Assembly (NCBI GenBank): GCA_032139905.1
Contig: JAQJDB010000007.1
Location: forward strand, 868,001-932,000
DNA: 64,000 nt
Source: Nitrospira sp. MA-1
GTDB lineage: Bacteria > Nitrospirota > Nitrospiria > Nitrospirales > UBA8639
Reading direction: 5' to 3'
A program made the translations under genes and the position numbers. The notes under the pieces are model-generated. The model did not search any database. It saw only the letters and a program-made list of their open reading frames with translations, and was not told where the DNA came from. Shown here in pieces: positions 16,422 to 27,030 of the stretch. Every line of letters begins with the position of its first letter. The stretch's first letter is position 1.

Positions 16422-19400
16422 ATGTTTACCCTCGTCAGTGGCCCATTCTCTCCTCACCTCGAATCAGCTCTTGTCGAAACGGTCCAGCAGATCAAGTCTG
16501 CCGATTCCCGTGCGCCGATAGCCATTCTTGTGCCTTCTGAATCAATACGAAGCAGGCTCAAGTGGCTATTATGCGCGGAGCATTCTTGTGCGCTTTTTGA
16601 TCTGCATATTCTGACATTCCATCAGTTCGCCCTCCACCTTCACGCGGAGCGAGCGGCATTGAGTTCGCCGGAGGCAGGGGGTTCCTCGTTTGAACTCGTC
16701 GGCGATTTTTTCTATGAATATCTTCTAGCGGAGCTTTTGGGAAAGGGTGGGCACACTGTCGGACCCTTTGCGGATCTCGCAGCCTCTTCGGGACTCAGGC
16801 AGGCCGTATGGCGAAGCCTGCGGGATTTACTGGAAGCGCAAGTGGAACCGAGTGTGGCCCTTCGTGCCGTGGAGGAAGGACTGTTCGATGAGGTCGCGGT
16901 CAATCGCTTACGGGGATTATTGGGATTTCAGGAGGCTCTCGGACTTTTGAGCCGGCAGTTAGGGGTGGGATTGCCTGAAGATCTGGCTAATTCAGTGATC
17001 CCCTGGGTGGCAAACTCACCGTTTCTCGCCAGACTTTCGACGGTCATCTACTACGGTTTTTACGACATCACCCAAGTGCAACTTTCGTTCTTAGAAGAAG
17101 TGGCTCGTACCACCGGTTCCGTAAAGGTATTCTTTCCCCTGACTGATCATCCTGCCTATCAGTTTGCTCAACGATTCGTCGATCGACATCTGCTAAAAGC
17201 TGGAGTGGTGCACTATCCTCTTCAGGTGAGCCACGAACCATTCGGTTCCGTGAATCAGGCCGTATCTTCTCCGTCAATCGAGGTGGTGAATGTGATTGGG
17301 GGACAAGGGGAACTGGTTTTTACCTGCAAAGCCATTCTGCATGCGGTTGAAACGACAGGGCATACGTTTCGTGAGATTGGGGTGGTGGCCAGAACTCTCG
17401 ATCCGTATGGGCCGTTTCTGCATCGAGTGTTTGAGGAGCATCGAATCCCATTTTGCACCACAGCGACCCTACCCCTGTTGGAAGAACCGGTTGCCAAGGT
17501 GTGGTGGCAGCTTGCCGGCCTGAGGGAGGAACAGTATCCGTGGCAGGCACTGCTGGATGTCGTGGCATCTCCATATTATCGCCGACTGTCGGTCAACGGC
17601 AGTTTTCCTCATGAACAAAAACAAATCTGGAGCCAGGCTATTCGTCATTGGCGTCTTGTGCGAGGCCTGGAAGATTGGGAACGTCTTGCCGTCGTCGTGA
17701 ACGATCCGGAGGCGATTGGGGATTGGCAGCGTAAGATTGGAGTTCCGCTGGAGGAGGCAGTTGCCGCATTACAAGAGTGCGCTGACGTCGTGGGCCGCCT
17801 CATAGCCGATTGCCAGGCTCTTCCGGAATCCGGCTCCATTGGCGAATTGACTCTTGCATTTGAATCACTCGTGAACACGCATCTTTCCTTGCTTCAAGAA
17901 GAGATCTCTTTCCAATTGGAAGAGCGAGATCAGGCTCATCTGACAAGTCTTGCACAAGGATTTGATCAGGTCATGGTGCAGTTAAAACAACTGGATCGGG
18001 TCGGCACACAAGTCACGTGGGGGGCATGGGTGGAAGTGTTTCGAGGAGCCCTGGAGGAGACGAGAAGGCTTCTACCTGGACAAAGCCCTCTCGGGGTACA
18101 GGTGTTCGATGCCATGGCGGCGCGAGGGCATGCCTTTAGAACCGTGTTTATTCTCGGAATGAATGATCAGGTTTTTCCCCGTGTGGTTCGGGAGGATGCA
18201 TTTTTACGTGACCGTGATCGAAGAGTGTTGGCGGAAAGTCTAGGCTATAAAATTGATGAAAAAATGCATGGGTTTGATGAAGAGGCTTTGTTGTTTGCCT
18301 TGCTTCGACATTCTGCTCGTGACCGGGTGTATCTCGTCTATCAACGTGCTGACCACAAAGGGCGTCCCCTGTTGCCGTCTTCTCTCCTAGCAGAATTGAT
18401 GAGAGATGGACCGGGCTGTTCTGAGTCGGAGATCAGCGTGCCGTTGCGTGTGGCCGAGCGCGGGAGGATTCCCTACTTTTCTCCCGGTGAAGAGACCGGA
18501 CAGGAAGCCCGCCTGCGACATCTGCTTCAGGGCCGCGCGATTCAAACCGATTCCTTGGAACCATCGTTCTGGTGGAAGGTGCTTCGCCAAGGACTCAAGG
18601 CCGTGTCTGCTCTTGAAAGGACTTCCTCGGGTGGAGGCTCATTTGATGGGATCCTGTCTGTCGAGGGGGATCATTGGCAGGATCTTTTGTCTCGGGGATT
18701 ATCACCGACAGCCTTGGAACGGTACGCCCAATGTCCCGGCCGGTATTGGATGGAGCATGTTCTGCGCACCAGGAATGTTCGAGAGCCGCTTTCGCGGGAC
18801 ATCCCAGGTCGGGTTTGGGGGGAGTTGGGGCATGCCATACTCCGCCATGTTTACCAATATCTCATCGATCATGGGTGGCCGGGCTCTCCCATAGAGCCTG
18901 TCGATCTTTCTTCGTTGATTGCCTCGACCATTGAACAGGTATCCGATGAGTATGCGAAGCACTATGGAAAAGGGTATATGGTCCTGTGGGAGAGAATGAA
19001 AACGCTATTAGGTCCAGTGGTGTTCACGATGATCGAACATGATCAACAGGAGTATGCCGATCAGGCGATGGCTCCAGTGGATTTTGAAGTAGGCGCCGAG
19101 GGGGAAATTTCAAGCGAGATGCCGGAAAGCTCGTCCTTGCTGAAGATTCATGGACGAGTGGATCGCGTGGACCAGCAGGCAGATGGCTTCAGGACTCGTA
19201 TTGTGGATTATAAGTTTTCGGGTGGCTTGACAACACGGACTGACAACCCCGATCTTGTTGCCGAGGCTCTGCAGGGTCGACGGCTACAACCTCCTTTATA
19301 TTCGTTGATGTCTTCCTTGAGCTTAACTGGCCATTCTGGAGTGAATGCGAAAGACACCGTGTTGCCGCATTCCGCAGTTCATTCTGTCGAATTCCGGTTT

Positions 19401-19676
19401 ATCCGTCCATTACATTCTGAATCTCTGACCTTCTCCTCGTTTCCCGGTTCAATCTGGGATACGCCGATTGGTGACCAATTGTTGGGGACCATTCGTCGTT
19501 GGATCCAGAGCATACGCGCCGGACAGTTCTTTATTTTACCTGGTTCCTACTGTCGTGACTGTTCATGGTCTGTGGCCTGTCGGTTCCAGCATCATCCTTC
19601 GTGGGTGAGGGCTTACGGTATTCCACTGGCGAAAGAATTTCGAAAGGGACGAAAGCAACGCGTCACCCATGGATAA
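16422..19676 (+). CDS. addB: AddB-like subunit of a RecBCD/AddAB-type helicase-nuclease
   Basis: 1084 residues. The N-terminal region aligns with an inactive helicase half: no GKT-type Walker A is seen in VSGPFSPHLES. FRTVFILGMNDQVFP and the region after it match AddB-type proteins. The C-terminal PD-(D/E)XK nuclease domain carries GRVDRVDQQ, RIVDYKFSGG (D...DYK) and LQPPLYSL. Four cysteines in the AddB iron-sulfur arrangement are present: one in ERYAQCPGRYWMEHVL and three in YCRDCSWSVACRF. With addA it would process double-strand breaks for RecA. addA lies 2.5 kb downstream, separated by scarred DNA containing a decayed copy of this gene's 3' end. Confidence 0.85.
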   Translation: MFTLVSGPFSPHLESALVETVQQIKSADSRAPIAILVPSESIRSRLKWLLCAEHSCALFDLHILTFHQFALHLHAERAALSSPEAGGSSFELVGDFFYEYLLAELLGKGGHTVGPFADLAASSGLRQAVWRSLRDLLEAQVEPSVALRAVEEGLFDEVAVNRLRGLLGFQEALGLLSRQLGVGLPEDLANSVIPWVANSPFLARLSTVIYYGFYDITQVQLSFLEEVARTTGSVKVFFPLTDHPAYQFAQRFVDRHLLKAGVVHYPLQVSHEPFGSVNQAVSSPSIEVVNVIGGQGELVFTCKAILHAVETTGHTFREIGVVARTLDPYGPFLHRVFEEHRIPFCTTATLPLLEEPVAKVWWQLAGLREEQYPWQALLDVVASPYYRRLSVNGSFPHEQKQIWSQAIRHWRLVRGLEDWERLAVVVNDPEAIGDWQRKIGVPLEEAVAALQECADVVGRLIADCQALPESGSIGELTLAFESLVNTHLSLLQEEISFQLEERDQAHLTSLAQGFDQVMVQLKQLDRVGTQVTWGAWVEVFRGALEETRRLLPGQSPLGVQVFDAMAARGHAFRTVFILGMNDQVFPRVVREDAFLRDRDRRVLAESLGYKIDEKMHGFDEEALLFALLRHSARDRVYLVYQRADHKGRPLLPSSLLAELMRDGPGCSESEISVPLRVAERGRIPYFSPGEETGQEARLRHLLQGRAIQTDSLEPSFWWKVLRQGLKAVSALERTSSGGGSFDGILSVEGDHWQDLLSRGLSPTALERYAQCPGRYWMEHVLRTRNVREPLSRDIPGRVWGELGHAILRHVYQYLIDHGWPGSPIEPVDLSSLIASTIEQVSDEYAKHYGKGYMVLWERMKTLLGPVVFTMIEHDQQEYADQAMAPVDFEVGAEGEISSEMPESSSLLKIHGRVDRVDQQADGFRTRIVDYKFSGGLTTRTDNPDLVAEALQGRRLQPPLYSLMSSLSLTGHSGVNAKDTVLPHSAVHSVEFRFIRPLHSESLTFSSFPGSIWDTPIGDQLLGTIRRWIQSIRAGQFFILPGSYCRDCSWSVACRFQHHPSWVRAYGIPLAKEFRKGRKQRVTHG

Positions 19677-19689
19677 ACTCGAACTTCTT

Positions 19690-19985
19690 TCCGATGCCAC
19701 TGCGCAAGTCACCTCGGCTCCGGTAATGCCAGGATTTGGTGGAGGCGCAATTTCCGGCGGCGGGGGTGGTGGATTTTAACCTGGTTATTGAGGTGTTCTC
19801 GTAATCTGAAAAGAGAGCCTGAAAGGGGAGCGGATATGGGAAGGAGGGGGTGCCCGTTTATAGCCCCGGATAATCATGAACAAGCCGACTGCAAACATCG
19901 GGACACAGAGTAACTGCCCCATGGTGATCCACTGGAAGATAAGCCTTAAATGACTATCCGGTTCACAGAAAAACTCGACAAAAAA
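19690..19985. pseudogene. decayed copy of TPR-lipoprotein 3' end plus lgt 3' end
   Basis: The DNA just after addB matches the junction at 26050-26350. Positions 19690-19779 repeat the end of the TPR lipoprotein gene, including SAPVMPGFGGGA, a Gly run and TAA. Positions 19850-19985 repeat, imperfectly, the final part of lgt in the same relative orientation (for example CCCATGGTGATCCACTGGAA against CCCATGGTGACCCATTGGAA). The hairpin between the two genes in the functional copy is degraded here. Neither fragment can encode a product. The arrangement points to an old segmental duplication. Confidence 0.8.
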
Positions 19986-20215
19986 ACGAGAGCCGTGACA
20001 GGCTCATATTCGTCCTGTCCTTCAGCCAAAGAATCCAAAACCATCGGGCGAGTAGGAATAGGAATGTTAAAAGGCATTTTTCACTGGACCGGAAAGTAGC
20101 CAAGACTTGGTTGGGAATCCATCCCCCCGGACTGTGCGGGCTGAAAGCCGTGAGTTGCCCCTTCGGCAGACGCCGAAGGGGCCAATTTTTCATGAATCAG
20201 CCTTCCCATTATTTC
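19983..20215 (-). repeat. copy A of a ~220-bp repeat (IS91-like terminal segment)
   Basis: Diverged direct repeat of 21187-21400. Shared blocks include AGGAATAGGAA, CTGAAAGCCGTGAG and a TTTTT(C/T)ATGAATCAG end. Read leftward, both copies can be conceptually translated to similar peptides (LTAF..HS, FR.S.K, KFLFL or TFLFL), but no start or ribosome site supports a gene. Copy B adjoins the end of an IS91-like transposase remnant, so the repeat is probably that element's terminal sequence. Confidence 0.6.
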
Positions 20216-20323
20216 CACTCCAACCAGGCAATCCCGTTCTGTTTGCTTACCGAGATTTGGTGGATGCGGAATGGGGTCGATGTGAACCGCGTCCGCCAAT
20301 TGAATCGGTTTCTCACCAGAGCC

Positions 20324-20836
20324 CTATGGCCCGGCGGTGTACGTCAAAGGACACGAAATATTGCAACCTCCTATCCCCGTGTAAATCCCCCCAAATTGGC
20401 CGATTATTGGTCCGCCTTGGCTACTATACAGGGCCAAACTGACTCCGCCCGCGCCGAACCCTCCGCATTTTAAATTGGCCCATACTTGCTTCCCGAAATA
20501 ATTACTGGGATCTTCATAGAACTGCCCCGCGCCCGCCCATGTCCCTGTCGTCCATGCGGTCCAGTCCCCGCCTGTAAGATGGGCTCCTGCCGTCCACCAA
20601 GGATGTGGGGCACCTCCAGTCCAGTCAGTGGTAAAGGCATACTTCCCGAACCCCGATGAAATCGCTCCTGCCCAAACACTAGGCCATTGTGACGGATCAT
20701 TGAGCGAGCCGTCATTTTTTTGGGCTTCTAACAATTCGGCGTGAGTCTTCGTAACCTTTGCTAATCTTGCGGCGGTGTCCCGTGCCTCTTCGGCTTTCAT
20801 TGTGAGCAGATTCTGTTCGCTTTCGCTCTTTGACAT
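20324..20836 (-). CDS. Trp/Gly-rich hypothetical protein between IS91-like repeats
   Basis: 170 residues, apparently intact, with GGAGG about 9 nt before the ATG at 20836. The first ~45 residues are a charged helix (MKAEEARDTAARLAKVTKTH). The remainder is rich in Trp and Gly (WWTAGAHLTGGDWTAWTTG; GGVSLALYSSQGGPIIGQFG), as in a compact beta-barrel, with three cysteines near the end. There is no signal peptide. I do not recognise the family; a distant resemblance to small beta-barrel proteins such as Rhodococcus Vap is only an impression. It sits between the two copies of the IS91-like repeat, as cargo would. Confidence 0.5.
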   Translation of the reverse strand: MSKSESEQNLLTMKAEEARDTAARLAKVTKTHAELLEAQKNDGSLNDPSQWPSVWAGAISSGFGKYAFTTDWTGGAPHPWWTAGAHLTGGDWTAWTTGTWAGAGQFYEDPSNYFGKQVWANLKCGGFGAGGVSLALYSSQGGPIIGQFGGIYTGIGGCNISCPLTYTAGP

Positions 20837-21186
20837 AACATGGCCTCCATGCCTGATAAGTGGATAGGGAAACTAAATTCCCTTTTTTGCTAGAGTGATC
20901 GGAATTACGATAAACCGCGAATAATGTCAAGGACAGAAAAAATGTGCCAAAGAGAGCGCCAATAATGTACCAGTTAAGTTAATAAAAAAAGGGATTGAGG
21001 CTCAGGTTTTGCGCACCTAGTTTTTTATTTCTTGGGGTTAATTAACCGTTGAGGCCTGGCAATGCTGCAAAGACATAGCGGGTGTGAATCTCGTCCAGGT
21101 AATCGCTAGCCACGAGCCTGGTATCGAGCCTTGCAGGCATATGGGTAACGAGGTGCTTGATGTGTAGGCACGAAAGGAAGCTAGGC
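20837..21186. other. AT-rich spacer with short direct repeats
   Basis: About 350 bp upstream of the Trp/Gly-rich gene. Two similar blocks (GCGAATAATGT then CAAGGACAG; GCCAATAATGT then ACCAGTTAAG) lie at about 20916-20985, resembling the multiple terminal repeats of an insertion sequence end, but no transposase adjoins them. No gene is seen. Confidence 0.35.
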
Positions 21187-21400
21187 GCAAAGGTAACAGG
21201 TGAAGCTGACGCTGAATGATAAAGTCCCGAAATAACCGCATTGGATAGGGCCGAGGAATAGGAACTTTGAAAGGTCTTTTTGACTGAACCGGAATGTACC
21301 AAAAACCTCGTTGAGGAATCGATCCGCGAGGCTGTGCTGTCTGAAAGCCGTGAGGTGACCATTCGAGAGAACCGGAGGGCCCATTTTTTATGAATCAGGA
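21187..21400 (-). repeat. copy B of the ~220-bp repeat, next to IS91-like transposase remnant
   Basis: Diverged match to 19983-20215 in the same orientation. It begins, on the minus strand, about 70 bp after the recognisable end of the IS91-like transposase remnant. This is where IS91-family elements carry their replication origin end. Confidence 0.6.
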
Positions 21401-21469
21401 CTGGTCTGTTGCGCACTTGGGACGTGAGGGCTGGGGAACTGGACCAAGGCAGAACGTCGGCTTCGGCGT

Positions 21470-21665
21470 TGAACCGGAATCCAGGATGGGATGAGGCTGT
21501 CAGGAAGAATTCGTCAAGACCGGCTGATGCCGTAGGCGCACGCGTGGGCAAACCGAGGTGCCGAAAATGTTGACGATCATGGCGGGTCGTCAATGGCCGC
21601 GAGGATGGTCAAGGGGCTGCCGCAATGCGGACAGGTGGTGCGGTCGATCGCGAAGACACCGTCAC
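21470..21665 (-). pseudogene. IS91-family transposase, C-terminal remnant
   Basis: On the minus strand one frame reads GVFAIDRTTCPHCGSPLTIL then AAIDDPP and a stop; after a frameshift it continues RHDRQHFRHLGLPTRAPTAS and DEFFLTAS. The CPxCG...L.ILA.I.DPP and HLGLPTRAP blocks are the characteristic C-terminal end of IS91-family Y2/HUH transposases. Everything upstream (relaxase core, zinc-binding N-terminus) is missing, so the element is dead. Confidence 0.72.
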
Positions 21666-21749
21666 CTCAGGGCACTGGGTGTTTCGTGCCAATCCCTTTA
21701 TTGCGAGAGGGTATCCTGCATGGTACGATCCCCCCTCCACCCAGTGATG

Positions 21750-22203
21750 AATCATTCTCGTGTTCGTCTCGTCGATTATAAAGTTTCAATGCGTCGGTCT
21801 TTTCGAGCAGATGAATGGGATTTGGTAACCAACACGCTCCAAGGTCGCCAGTTGCAGCCTCCCTTATATTCGTTCTTGACCTCACTGAATCTTGAGCGTG
21901 GCACTGCGGATGTGGGGTAATCACCTCTGTTATCCGGTCGTCGGACTTCTGTTATCTGCCCCCCATGCAAGAGGCGTCTGCCTCATTCCCAGGAGCCAAT
22001 TGGGAAACCGCGACTGGTGAACAATTGAGGCGCACCCTTCAGGGTGGGGTGCAAAGGATTCGTGCCGGGAATTTTTCTTCTTACCTGGTACCTATTGTCG
22101 CAGCTGTCAAGATTCCATGGCCTGTCGTTCCCAGCCTCATCCGTCTTGGTCACGCGCCTCTGGGCTTCCGCTAGCAAGATCCTTTCGACGGATCCGCAAA
22201 TAG
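21750..22203 (+). pseudogene. decayed second copy of the addB 3' end
   Basis: Conceptual translation gives RVRLVDYKVS and TLQGRQLQPPLYSFLTSL, then a stop. In another frame SFPGANWETATGEQLRRTL and IRAGNF follow; after one more frame change comes FFLPGTYCRSCQDSMACRSQ, down to a TAG at 22201-22203. These match, in order, the nuclease D-Y-K motif, the LQPPLYS block and the three-cysteine iron-sulfur cluster of AddB at 19200-19676. The region has at least two frame breaks and an in-frame stop. It lies directly upstream of addA, where an intact addB end would be expected. Confidence 0.85.
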
Positions 22204-22213
22204 AAGGCCTCCA

Positions 22214-25200
22214 ATGACTAATCCCTCTCCCTTATTTGATGCCGATGCGCGCCTCACGGCGGAAACGACGTTTGATCGCAATGTGGTCGTGCTGGCCGGA
22301 GCCGGGACAGGTAAAACAACATTGTTGGTCAATCGCCTGATTCATGCGCTTCTGAGGGAGCCCCACCCATTACGCTTGACCGACATGTTGGCTCTGACCT
22401 TTACGAATAAAGCCGCCAATGAAATGAAAGCGCGGCTCCGCGATCGGTTGCATGGGTTGCTGGCTGATTGTGAGGCGGAAGCCGGAAGTGCGGAGTTAGG
22501 TGGTACAGGCCTGGAGGAATTCAAACAACGCTATCATGTCTCCACGGCACATGTGAGGGGAAAAATTCAAGTCGCCTTGAGTGATTTGGAAAAATCTCAA
22601 ATCGCCACACTTCATAGTTTTGCCGCTCATATCCTTCGCCTGTATCCCTTAGAGGCCCGGGTCGATCCTCATTTCCAAGAGGATGACGGGACTCAATTTC
22701 TTCAGATATTTCAAGATGTGTGGGATGCCTGGTTGGAACAGGAATTAGGTGCCAAAGGTTCCGCGCACGCCCAGTGGCGGGACTTGCTCAATCACATGGG
22801 GCTTAAGGAGATTCGATCCTTTGCCTTTTCGCTCTGTCAGGATCAGATCTCTATTCCTGAGTTGGAACGGCAAATGGATGCTGAAGGATCCCCTGCGGCC
22901 TTTCGGATGTGGCTAGAGACTAAACATCATCAGGTCCGATCATTGCTCACGCAATATGATCGAGCCAAACCTCGAAAAATTGAGAAGCTCCTCTCTCTCG
23001 CTGAACGCGTGTTGGATTGGGTGGGGCAGGGGAGGTCACCAACGGACTTCCCCTTGTCTGATGCGGAGAAAGTTTTGCTTGGTTCTCCAATTGGCAAGGC
23101 ACCGGGAGAGTGGAATGCGTCGGATTTTCAAGATGCCAGGCGAGCGATTCAAGGCGCGCAACAGATGCTGCAAGTCAATGAAGCCCTATTGAGTAGAGTC
23201 ATTCATCTGCTTGGGCCGTTTGCGGCACGGGTCCGGCAGGGTTTTTCAGATAAGGGCTGGATTCGTTTTGATGGGCTCTTGATCCGGGTCAGGGATCTCC
23301 TGCGCGATCATCCCATGGTCCGTGAACAGTTGAAGGGAACCTATGCAGCCATTATGGTCGATGAGTTTCAGGATACTGATCCGGTTCAATATGAAATTTT
23401 GCTCTATTTAGGTGAGCGTCCCCATGCGTGTGGGCAGTTTTGGCGGGATATTCAGCTTATGCCGGGAAAGCTGTTTATTGTGGGCGATCCCAAACAATCG
23501 ATCTATGCCTTTCGGCGAGCTGATATCGAGGCATTCGATCAGGTCGTGGAGAAAGTGACGGATGATGGAGGGATCGTCTGTACGCTTCTAACCAATTTTC
23601 GTAGTGATGGGTCCATTCTTGAAGCCGTCAATGCGGTGTTTGACCGGTTGTTCATTCCCCAAGCCAATGTGCAACCCCCCAATGTCCCTCTGGCGGTTGG
23701 ACGGATGCGAGAGGCCGGTTCCGGCTCGACAGGAGTGGAGATCTGTGTAATGGCTAACCTTCAAGAGGAGGACGAATGGGATGCAGATCGGGCCACCAGG
23801 GTGGAAGCCGAATGGCTGGCCGGATGGATTGAAGAGCAATTGGTGCCGGGAAGACAGTGGATCATGGAAAAGGGAGTGAGAACCTCATTGCGCCCAGGGC
23901 ATATCGCGGTGTTGTTAAGGAAATTTACCAATGCGCAAGTGTATCTTGAAGCGCTGCAGCGCCACAACATTCCTTGCATAACCGATGGTGAGCGGCATTT
24001 TTACAAGCGTCAGGAAGTGATTGATGTGGTGAACGTGCTTCGCGTCCTGGATGACCCCACCGATGCCCTGGCCCTTGTGGGTATCCTTCGTTCTTCGTTA
24101 GGAGGGCTGACGGATCAAGAGATTATGGATGTGATGAAACTTGGACCCTTGGATGTCCGGCAGGCTCATAAAATGAATGAATGGGCGAATTCAAAGCAGT
24201 CAGTCATTCAGGGCCTTTTCCAACGGCTGGCCTGGCTTCATATCCAGGCAAATCGACTTCCTATTCCGGAATTGCTTGATCACCTGTTTCTGCAACTCCC
24301 TCTCGTGGAATTAGCTGCGGCTTCGAGTCATGGGGAGCAGGCGGTGGTAAATGTCTGGAAACTTCGTGACCTCATGAGTGAACAGGCCGCATTACCTCAG
24401 GTATCTTTTTCTGTCTGGGTAGAACGCCTGGTTGAGGCCCTTATGACCCATCCTCCGGAACCTGAGGCCCCCTTGGCCGAAGAGACCTTAGACGCAGTAC
24501 GTGTCTTAACGATTCATAAGGCCAAAGGACTCGAATTCCCTGTGGTGATATTGCCCGGATTACATCAAAGGGCGACGGGACCTGATCGTGGGGCACATAT
24601 TTCATATGACTGGATTAGCGGCTTGTATGGCTGTACGTTGCCACCTGTGTGGAATAGGGGCCAGATTCCGCTGTGGGAAAAGCAACGGATTCGAGAAGCC
24701 GCTGAACAGCGGCGCGTGCTGTATGTGGGAATGACCAGAGCCCGAGAGCGATTAATCTTATCAGGTGGCATACTTGCGAAGCGGGGTGGGGAGAGCCTGT
24801 TGGGTCTTATTCAGGAGATTGCTGAAGGAGAGTTTGGCGATACAGAACTGAGGGTGGCGCGTGTGGGAGAGGTTTCCATTCCACACACCGTCGTGACACC
24901 CGCTGTATTGCAATATTTGAAGCCTTCACAGGCACATTCTGATGCTGAAAGTAGCAGTGAGGTGGTACTCTCGACAGCACAGTGGGATGCCCGTGAAATG
25001 AGGTGGCAGCAGGCCAATCATGCGGAGGCCTACGTCAATCCCTCTATGCTGCATCAGGCGAGATCTCTTCAGGACCAGGGAGAGAGAGGGGAAATTTCCC
25101 GTGGGACCAGTCAGCGTTTCGGAACGTTAATGCATCAGCTTCTTCAACGATGGGATTTTCAAATTGAGCCGGGGATGGTTCGGACTGCTCTTGTCGCTTT

Positions 25201-25678
25201 TGGTGAGCGGCAGCTCTCGGGCGAGCTGGGGAAAGACAAGGATGAGGTGATCAGAGAACTGGAAACGCTTTTTGATCAATTGGTCGCATCACCGGTATAT
25301 TTGGAATTGCAGCAGTCGAACATCCTGGGTCGGGAGGTTCCCTTTGCGGTGCCATGGCCTGTTGGGCAACAGGAGCCTTCCCTGCCACGGACCTGCGTGA
25401 TGGAGGGCGTGATGGATGTAATCTATGAAATCAATGGAGACGTGTGGGTTGGCGATTATAAAACGGATCACGTATCCTCCCGCACTGTGGCGCAGCGAGC
25501 GGAGGCCTACCGGGAACAAGCCTATGCCTATGCCCGGGCGGCAAGCCAATGCTTGGGTCCTGTGGTCAAAGGGTGTAAACTCTTTTTTATTCGTCTCGGT
25601 GAAGTGGTCACCGTAGATCTGGGAGTCGATGAAAATATGTACCAAAATAAACAACAGGTGATAAGGAGGGAGCGATGA
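22214..25678 (+). CDS. addA: AddA-like helicase-nuclease subunit (UvrD/Rep family)
   Basis: 1154-residue SF1A helicase with C-terminal nuclease. Visible motifs: Walker A VVVLAGAGTGKTTLLV (about residues 25-40), TFTNKAANEMKARL, AIMVDEFQDTDPVQYEIL (Walker B), VGDPKQSIYAFRRADI, LLTNFRSDGSIL, VLTIHKAKGLEFPVVILPG and YVGMTRARERLIL. The C-terminal PD-(D/E)XK nuclease has MEGVMDVIYEI and VWVGDYKTDHV. It should load with AddB to resect breaks. The stop overlaps the start of the next gene in ATGA. Confidence 0.92.
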   Translation: MTNPSPLFDADARLTAETTFDRNVVVLAGAGTGKTTLLVNRLIHALLREPHPLRLTDMLALTFTNKAANEMKARLRDRLHGLLADCEAEAGSAELGGTGLEEFKQRYHVSTAHVRGKIQVALSDLEKSQIATLHSFAAHILRLYPLEARVDPHFQEDDGTQFLQIFQDVWDAWLEQELGAKGSAHAQWRDLLNHMGLKEIRSFAFSLCQDQISIPELERQMDAEGSPAAFRMWLETKHHQVRSLLTQYDRAKPRKIEKLLSLAERVLDWVGQGRSPTDFPLSDAEKVLLGSPIGKAPGEWNASDFQDARRAIQGAQQMLQVNEALLSRVIHLLGPFAARVRQGFSDKGWIRFDGLLIRVRDLLRDHPMVREQLKGTYAAIMVDEFQDTDPVQYEILLYLGERPHACGQFWRDIQLMPGKLFIVGDPKQSIYAFRRADIEAFDQVVEKVTDDGGIVCTLLTNFRSDGSILEAVNAVFDRLFIPQANVQPPNVPLAVGRMREAGSGSTGVEICVMANLQEEDEWDADRATRVEAEWLAGWIEEQLVPGRQWIMEKGVRTSLRPGHIAVLLRKFTNAQVYLEALQRHNIPCITDGERHFYKRQEVIDVVNVLRVLDDPTDALALVGILRSSLGGLTDQEIMDVMKLGPLDVRQAHKMNEWANSKQSVIQGLFQRLAWLHIQANRLPIPELLDHLFLQLPLVELAAASSHGEQAVVNVWKLRDLMSEQAALPQVSFSVWVERLVEALMTHPPEPEAPLAEETLDAVRVLTIHKAKGLEFPVVILPGLHQRATGPDRGAHISYDWISGLYGCTLPPVWNRGQIPLWEKQRIREAAEQRRVLYVGMTRARERLILSGGILAKRGGESLLGLIQEIAEGEFGDTELRVARVGEVSIPHTVVTPAVLQYLKPSQAHSDAESSSEVVLSTAQWDAREMRWQQANHAEAYVNPSMLHQARSLQDQGERGEISRGTSQRFGTLMHQLLQRWDFQIEPGMVRTALVAFGERQLSGELGKDKDEVIRELETLFDQLVASPVYLELQQSNILGREVPFAVPWPVGQQEPSLPRTCVMEGVMDVIYEINGDVWVGDYKTDHVSSRTVAQRAEAYREQAYAYARAASQCLGPVVKGCKLFFIRLGEVVTVDLGVDENMYQNKQQVIRRER

Positions 25679-26142
25679 GGAATTGGAGGATGAAGATGTA
25701 CATTGGGGTCTGTTTCATCATGATGGCGGCAGGAGGGTGCGCGTCTGACAAACCAGTGCCGTTGACAGCCTTGGCCCCTCCCCCGAATGTAGATGCCCAA
25801 GTGTTGCAGTACATGACCGAAGGCAAGCGTTTTTTTGAGGAAGGCCAGTGGGAATCGGCACGACAACAATTTCGGTTGGCCGTTCAGCAACAGGCCGATC
25901 TGGCCGAAGCGCACTATAATCTAGGTTTGTCCATGGACAAAATGGGCGATCAAGCGGGAGCAAAAAAGCATTTCATTGAGGCTGCCAACCTTGCTCCCGG
26001 CAATAAGGTGATTTGGAATTCTCCGCCCCTTCGGCGGTATGGCAATGTTCCCGATGCCCCTGCGCAAGCCACCTCGGCCCCGGTGATGCCAGGGTTCGGT
26101 GGAGGTGCAAGTCCCGGAGGAGGAGGCGGTGGTGGGTTTTAA
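25675..26142 (+). CDS. TPR-containing lipoprotein with glycine-rich tail
   Basis: 155 residues. The signal peptide with lipobox MMAAGGC (Cys near residue 22) predicts a lipoprotein. The middle has tetratricopeptide-like helices (MTEGKRFFEEGQWESARQQF; AEAHYNLGLSMDKMGDQAGA). The tail is GFGGGASPGGGGGGGF. It starts within the addA stop (ATGA), so it is translationally coupled to addA despite an envelope location. lgt, the enzyme that lipidates such proteins, is the convergent neighbour. Role unknown. Confidence 0.72.
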   Translation: MRNWRMKMYIGVCFIMMAAGGCASDKPVPLTALAPPPNVDAQVLQYMTEGKRFFEEGQWESARQQFRLAVQQQADLAEAHYNLGLSMDKMGDQAGAKKHFIEAANLAPGNKVIWNSPPLRRYGNVPDAPAQATSAPVMPGFGGGASPGGGGGGGF

Positions 26143-26166
26143 CCTCCTTATGGGGGTTTTCTCGGA
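26138..26166 (+). terminator. likely intrinsic terminator after the TPR lipoprotein gene
   Basis: AACCTCC-TTAT-GGGGGTT forms a short stem (one G.T pair) directly behind the TAA and is followed by TTTTC. It separates the convergent lgt gene. The corresponding hairpin in the duplicated remnant near 19780 is decayed. Confidence 0.55.
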
Positions 26167-26211
26167 ATCTGAAAAGAACGCGTGAAGGGAGAGAGGAAAT
26201 GGGAAGGAGGG

Positions 26212-27030
26212 TTATGCCCGTTTGTAGCCTCGGACAATCATGAACACGCCGACCGCAACCATCGGGATACAGAGTATCTGCCCCATGGTGACCCATTGGA
26301 AAATGAATCCTAAATGACTATCTGGCTCACGGAAAAATTCCACAAAAAATCGGGCAACTCCATATCCGCAGATGAAGGTCCAAAACATGGTTCCCGGTGG
26401 GGTTGGCCAGCGATTGAGGATCGTTAATATGACAAAGAGTGTCACGCCTTCCAGGCCTGCCTCATAGAGTTGCGATGGGTGTCGGCATTCCGGGCCGCCA
26501 TGGGGAAATACCATGCACCATTCGACGTCGGTCGACCGCCCGAATAATTCTCCATTGATAAAATTCCCCATCCGTCCAAACCCCAACCCGATTGGAGCCG
26601 CTCCTGCTGCCAGGTCGGCGATGGGCCAAACAGGAAACCCACGGGTTTTGCAAAAGATCCAGATAGCGATACAGGTCCCGATCAGCCCGCCATGAAATGA
26701 CATTCCCCCTTCCCATACCGCAAAAATTTTGAGGGGATGGTCAAGATAAAATGGAAAGTTATAAAAGAGCACATATCCCAAGCGCCCACCGAGAAAGACA
26801 CCAAAGGCGGCATAGACAATTAGGTCGGATAATTGTTGTGGTGGGAGAGAGACATTCCTTGTGGCAGCTCTGGACTTGATGAGCCAATAGGCCCCTGCCA
26901 ACCCCAGGAGGTACATGAGGCCATACCATCGAAGTGCCAGGGGGCCCATTCGAAAAAAGACCGGATCAATGTCCGGGTATGGGAGTCGAGCAAGGTCAGC
27001 TAAAAGCATGACAGGGTCGAAGGCCATCAT
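26212..27030 (-). CDS. lgt: prolipoprotein diacylglyceryl transferase
   Basis: 272-residue inner-membrane enzyme that transfers diacylglycerol to the lipobox cysteine of prolipoproteins. About seven hydrophobic segments. Family motifs: ALRWYGLMYLLG, GGMSFHGGLIG, GFGRMGNFINGELFGR and HPSQLYEA. Conserved His and Arg residues of these motifs are present. Its 3' end was duplicated in the scar between addB and addA. Confidence 0.95.
   Translation of the reverse strand: MMAFDPVMLLADLARLPYPDIDPVFFRMGPLALRWYGLMYLLGLAGAYWLIKSRAATRNVSLPPQQLSDLIVYAAFGVFLGGRLGYVLFYNFPFYLDHPLKIFAVWEGGMSFHGGLIGTCIAIWIFCKTRGFPVWPIADLAAGAAPIGLGFGRMGNFINGELFGRSTDVEWCMVFPHGGPECRHPSQLYEAGLEGVTLFVILTILNRWPTPPGTMFWTFICGYGVARFFVEFFREPDSHLGFIFQWVTMGQILCIPMVAVGVFMIVRGYKRA

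Follow-up and report, generated by a model that had tools for sequence, protein, structure and literature searches.

Lineage affinities of the addB, TPR and lgt remnants that separate addB from addA in Nitrospira sp. MA-1

An interrupted operon junction

How did addB and addA of Nitrospira sp. MA-1, which in relatives overlap at stop and start codon, come to lie 2.5 kb apart, and from where do the gene fragments between them originate? In the window, the whole stretch of 64,000 nucleotides analysed here, the locus reads addB, insert, addA, a TPR gene, lgt on the minus strand and a gene for an NtrC-type regulator. The resident addB (addB1, 16422-19676, plus strand) is intact and encodes a protein of 1084 residues with a PDDEXK_1 domain (PF12705, 1.2e-26). 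Equally intact are addA (22214-25678, plus strand) with UvrD and PDDEXK_1 domains, the TPR gene (25675-26142, plus strand; TPR_11/TPR_2; 98% amino acid identity to NPIRA06) and lgt (26212-27030, minus strand; PF01790, 3.9e-83). AddB and AddA thus persist as complete proteins and probably still function together, even though the overlap of their genes is gone. A promoter scan of the insert yielded 3 hits versus a shuffle mean of 1.7, which is no clear excess, and a new addA promoter is not claimed. A search of the literature on AddAB in Nitrospira found nothing relevant.

The nearest named relatives are the Nitrospirales MAGs NPIRA06 (G003), NPIRA03, UBA8639 and Dino_bin26. At this locus the genus, for which genome-wide comparisons were made by searches, splits into two subclades with only 51-55% protein identity in AddB between them; AddB1 belongs to clade 1, with 91% amino acid identity to NPIRA06 and 73-82% to other members of that clade. 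The order addB-addA-TPR-lgt, on which an earlier reading made from the sequence alone had based its argument, is kept throughout the genus. That reading had also proposed comparing the interval in close relatives. In the nine other clade-1 genomes that carry the addB end and the addA start on one contig, among them the closest, NPIRA06, the addA start lies on the last bases of addB without any insert, and in the clade-2 genomes examined addA likewise lies at the end of addB, save for a few bases. The insert is therefore absent from the relatives with an assembled junction, the exception being a 53-bp trace of its addB end in genome G013. A complete two-copy tandem array was found in none of 21 genomes of the genus, several of which are fragmented at this locus.

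Fragments of a second copy of the locus and their lineage affinities

The sequence-only reading saw in the insert the degraded 3' end of TPR/lgt, then repeats and finally what is left of an addB 3' end, and alignments and tblastn searches bear this out. It took these pieces for what is left when addB-addA-TPR-lgt is duplicated in tandem and the first addA and the body of the second addB are lost. The order of the fragments fits this proposal, as does a stub of addA that directly follows addB1. The stub (19670-19699, plus strand), which was recognized by alignment with the addA starts of the nine clade-1 genomes, comprises the start codon and the first approximately 30 nucleotides of the lost gene, ATGGATAAACTCGAACTTCTTTCCGATGCC, and it overlaps the addB1 stop codon in the same way as addA does in the relatives. 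Its sequence is that of a clade-1 type addA start (compare ATGAATAATCTCGAACGTCTTCCCGATGCC in G004). At 19688-19698 (plus strand) the stub joins the TPR remnant through an 11-bp microhomology, TTYCCGATGCC, which has one further site in the window, at 26048 within the TPR gene, and which four clade-1 genomes also have at the start of addA. The stub is direct evidence of the first addA, the remainder of which was likely removed through a short-repeat deletion.

Downstream of the join lie the 3' end of a second, decayed TPR gene (19688-19779, plus strand; 84% identity to the TPR 3' end from 26048) and the 3' end of a second lgt, corresponding to residues 226-272 (19851-19991, minus strand; tblastn 79%, E 3.7e-21). 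Aligning this region with the downstream copy, a check that the earlier reading had suggested, gave 83.4% identity over 301 nucleotides between 19688-19988 and 26048-26352, running from the 3' end of TPR across the intergenic spacer into that of lgt, with a score of 193 where the best of 200 shuffles reached 16. Is this fragment a copy of the resident genes? Its identity is highest with G013 (89.7%), ahead of the resident copy (83.1%) and NPIRA06 (82.4%), and a tree in which remnant and resident copy are sisters is rejected (p-AU 0.001). The remnant appears nearest to the sister genome G013, although its placement there is weak, and it would have split off no later than NPIRA06 did or would derive from a G013-like lineage. 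A clade of the remnant, the resident copy and NPIRA06 is not rejected (p = 0.084), so that the array could also have been present in the common ancestor of all three genomes and have disappeared from NPIRA06 later, instead of having been imported.

The addB remnant, addB2 (21747-22213, plus strand), departs more clearly from the resident gene. By nucleotide identity, tree and AU tests it derives from a clade-2 addB, of which a frameshifted and decayed 3' end is left; its last approximately 50 nucleotides now serve as the leader of addA. The nuclease and iron-sulfur motifs, which had been said to be legible across frameshifts, can both be read, in different frames: the nuclease motif as HSRVRLVDYK (FRTRIVDYK in the intact addB) and the Fe-S cysteines as YCRSCQDSMACRS (YCRDCSWSVACRF in the intact addB). 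In tblastn searches the intact AddB found three pieces of the remnant with E values from 3.5e-13 to 6.7e-17. At the DNA level the expected alignment with addB1 held only in part, since the two align well solely at 21981-22188 (67% over these best 208 nucleotides) and are 56% identical over 467 nucleotides. In contrast, identity of the remnant to clade-2 addB genes is 66-75%, the tree places it inside clade 2 with support of 98/100, and a clade of addB2 and resident addB is rejected (p-AU 8e-43). On these tests addB2 is excluded as a duplicate of the resident addB, while the depth at which it branches is less fixed, as a grouping of the remnant with the resident gene and all clade-1 sequences is not rejected outright (p = 0.08). 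Moreover, the foreign affinity extends into the present addA. This gene starts with ATGACTAATCCCTCTCCCTTATTT; its nucleotides 1-24 (22214-22237) are of clade-2/G013 type, and it turns to the resident, NPIRA06-like type at GATGCCGATGCGCG, with nucleotide 25 at 22238.

What remains of a plain duplication of the resident block? The fragment order and the 83% identity of the TPR/lgt fragment to the downstream copy are what an old tandem duplication followed by decay would leave. However, the addB remnant is nearer to clade 2 than to the resident gene, the TPR/lgt fragment is not the sister of the resident copy and addA starts with clade-2 type sequence. The tandem arrangement that had been proposed thus fits the order of the pieces and the stub but not their origin as copies of the resident block. 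In its simple form the duplication is already refuted, its rescue would need a later overwriting of addB2 and of the addA start by clade-2 DNA, and we consider it unlikely.

Mobile-element debris in the spacer

The two repeats of the earlier reading, 20054-20200 and 21254-21398, are about 80% alike and can be read, from their matches in other genomes, as remnants of one IS91-family end. The first, without a transposase, is a terminal end (20047-20200, minus strand) that shares 80% identity with 21254-21398 and 72-86% with IS91-type ends of the same and related genomes. The second (21254-21657, minus strand) consists of a terminal end and a frameshifted transposase C-terminus (VFAIDRTTCPHCGSPLTILAAIDDP) and is 69-72% identical in nucleotide sequence to copies in several genomes; tblastn with a related transposase that contains the PF04986 (Y2_Tnp) domain (L030) detected it with an E value of about 1e-10. 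As in IS91-family elements with Y2 transposases, the transposase C-terminus has a CPxCG zinc motif, and a recurrent terminal sequence lies beside the transposase 3' end, as the match of 21254-21657 to copies in several genomes shows; unlike these elements, both copies here are truncated and dead, and only the C-terminal part of the transposase, whose related copy L030 has PF04986, remains. An assignment of the repeats to an RNA family (ctRNA_pGA1, E 0.33) was dropped as a chance match. Further copies of the same IS91-type end are present elsewhere in the genome (L132 on contig C6 and L133 on contig C4), suggesting that the element has spread in this lineage.

In addition, the spacer contains a fragment of group II intron domain D1 (21085-21301, plus strand; Rfam RF02005, 55.5 bits with a gathering threshold of 49), which the sequence-only reading had overlooked and which is the single RF02005 match in the whole genome. 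The match runs into the second IS91 remnant, and the intron sequence proper probably stops at about 21250, at the onset of the IS91 end; that 21254-21398 is itself group II intron sequence is ruled out, because it is contiguous with the IS91 transposase C-terminus in several genomes. There is no Rfam match to intron domains V-VI in 19600-22300, and no reverse transcriptase was found, the long frames of the spacer being limited to one of 170 and a Pfam-negative one of 183 amino acids. The intron piece is a dead fragment. The 170-residue open frame (20324-20836, minus strand) between the IS91 remnants is without clear relatives: it has no match in Pfam, NCBIfam, PDB, plasmids, viral contigs or the genomes of the taxonomic family, and among about 300 genomes of the phylum it gave only two marginal hits of 39 residues. 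Most of 20201-21084 and the 89 bp at 21658-21746 carry no assigned feature.

Could these elements have assembled the insert? The middle of the insert lies between two IS91 ends of like orientation, and one of the remnants lies 90 bp from addB2, as might be expected if the addB2 and TPR/lgt ends had arrived separately, by one-ended rolling-circle transposition of an IS91-family element or by other illegitimate joins, and no tandem state had ever existed. Such piecewise capture is doubtful, though, since independent captures are not expected to preserve the operon register at both junctions: the stub of the first addA sits beside addB1, and the addB2 end adjoins an addA start, the crossover falling at corresponding positions of the homologous addA genes.

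A probable tandem of two alleles, reciprocal loss and possible exchange at the junction

The fragments stand in operon register, addB-addA'-TPR'-lgt'-addB'-addA-TPR-lgt, and the insert is probably the scar of a tandem merodiploid that joined two lineage-different alleles of one locus and then underwent reciprocal loss. The clade-2 affinity of addB2, the clade-2 type of addA nucleotides 1-24 and the proximity of the TPR/lgt remnant to G013 together suggest that the halves met by recombination between lineages. Briefly, the incoming copy of the locus would itself have been mixed, a clade-2 addB being followed by addA-TPR-lgt of clade 1, which is what G013 suggests, and a crossover at the addA 5' end would have recombined it with the resident addB1-addA1-TPR1-lgt1. 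The product would have been addB1-addA(1/foreign)-TPR'-lgt'-X-addB2-addA(foreign/1)-TPR1-lgt1. Deletion between the 11-bp direct repeats would then have removed the first addA and most of TPR', the body of addB2 would have been lost and the spacer would have kept debris of IS91-family elements and of a group II intron, leading to the present state of one intact addB and one intact addA. Tandem merodiploids are known to arise in transformation through alternative pairing of partly repeated DNA (PMC4287498; PMC3784515). As in Streptococcus pneumoniae, imported partly repeated DNA would have created tandem junctions, and two alleles would have coexisted until one was lost (PMC3784515; PMC4287498); in contrast to the pneumococcal merodiploids, which span about 100-900 kb and were observed in the laboratory (PMC4287498), the array considered here is operon-sized and deduced from remnants. 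Compared with other AddAB helicase-nuclease operons, the intact addB and addA with their expected domains are conventional, as is the stop/start overlap in the relatives, whereas in MA-1 2.5 kb of remnants interrupt the overlap, and addA has its leader and first codons from another lineage.

The junction of NPIRA06, although uninterrupted, does not simply preserve the ancestral state. There the last approximately 140 nucleotides of addB and nucleotides 1-24 of addA are a recombination patch of G009/G020 type (L006:13110-13274), with 19 sites versus 3 for G009/G020-type bases in the patch and 66 versus 351 upstream (Fisher p = 5e-12); the patch also has a 3-nt insertion, and on both sides of it the sequence is of the type found in MA-1. 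Furthermore, two NPIRA06 contigs, C42 and C75, share an exact overlap of 141 bp that begins at addA nucleotide 25 (L006:13251-13415, L089:1-141), the point at which addA of MA-1 switches type. This overlap may be a branch of the assembly graph that reflects a second junction variant in that population.

Possible strain variants at this position, together with the different lineage affinities of the pieces, could also point to a chimeric assembly of two co-occurring strains in MA-1. Both outer flanks of the insert nevertheless come from one lineage (94% nucleotide identity to NPIRA06), the fragments have decayed through frameshifts and include debris of mobile elements, and the assembly of 4.76 Mb comprises 7 contigs and is 99.98% complete and 1.15% contaminated. 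A chimera is thus very unlikely.

G013 differs again. In the region L074:304-4275 only 53 bp of the same addB2 end lie in front of its addA, preceded by unrelated DNA with a HAD-like hydrolase and other frames, and its addA start is a clade-2-type hybrid that switches nearer nucleotide 54. This combination indicates that the junction is not unique to MA-1. An addB was not found in the G013 draft, the contigs of which are broken here, the upstream contig ending in a histidine kinase gene. The junction thus has a different history in each of the three sister genomes MA-1, NPIRA06 and G013.

AddB is the Chi-recognising subunit in studied AddAB enzymes. It is conceivable, if speculative, that the junction between addB and addA repeatedly serves as a point of exchange in the genus, at which the subclades swap addB alleles of only about half-identical protein sequence via short-lived two-copy arrays, perhaps because phage inhibitors exert pressure on AddAB or because Chi recognition is under pressure; the three patches fall within the same approximately 150 bp, with breakpoints at addA nucleotides 24-54. 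If the junction is truly such a hotspot, the effects of addB allele swaps are testable in cultured Nitrospira.

The insert of MA-1 is a well-documented evolutionary scar of local evolutionary interest and no new kind of system. It makes an operon allele exchange visible through its leftovers at base-pair resolution, with a two-allele array, reciprocal loss and one breakpoint in the start region, and it cautions that a tandem duplication deduced from gene order needs a phylogeny of the pieces.

A further fragment of lgt was observed in another genome, G012, in which a contig starts with a 160-bp lgt 3' fragment (L126:2-160) that shares 98.75% identity with the intact lgt located 1.5 kb further on (1463-2254), representing either a separate recent partial duplication or an assembly end effect.
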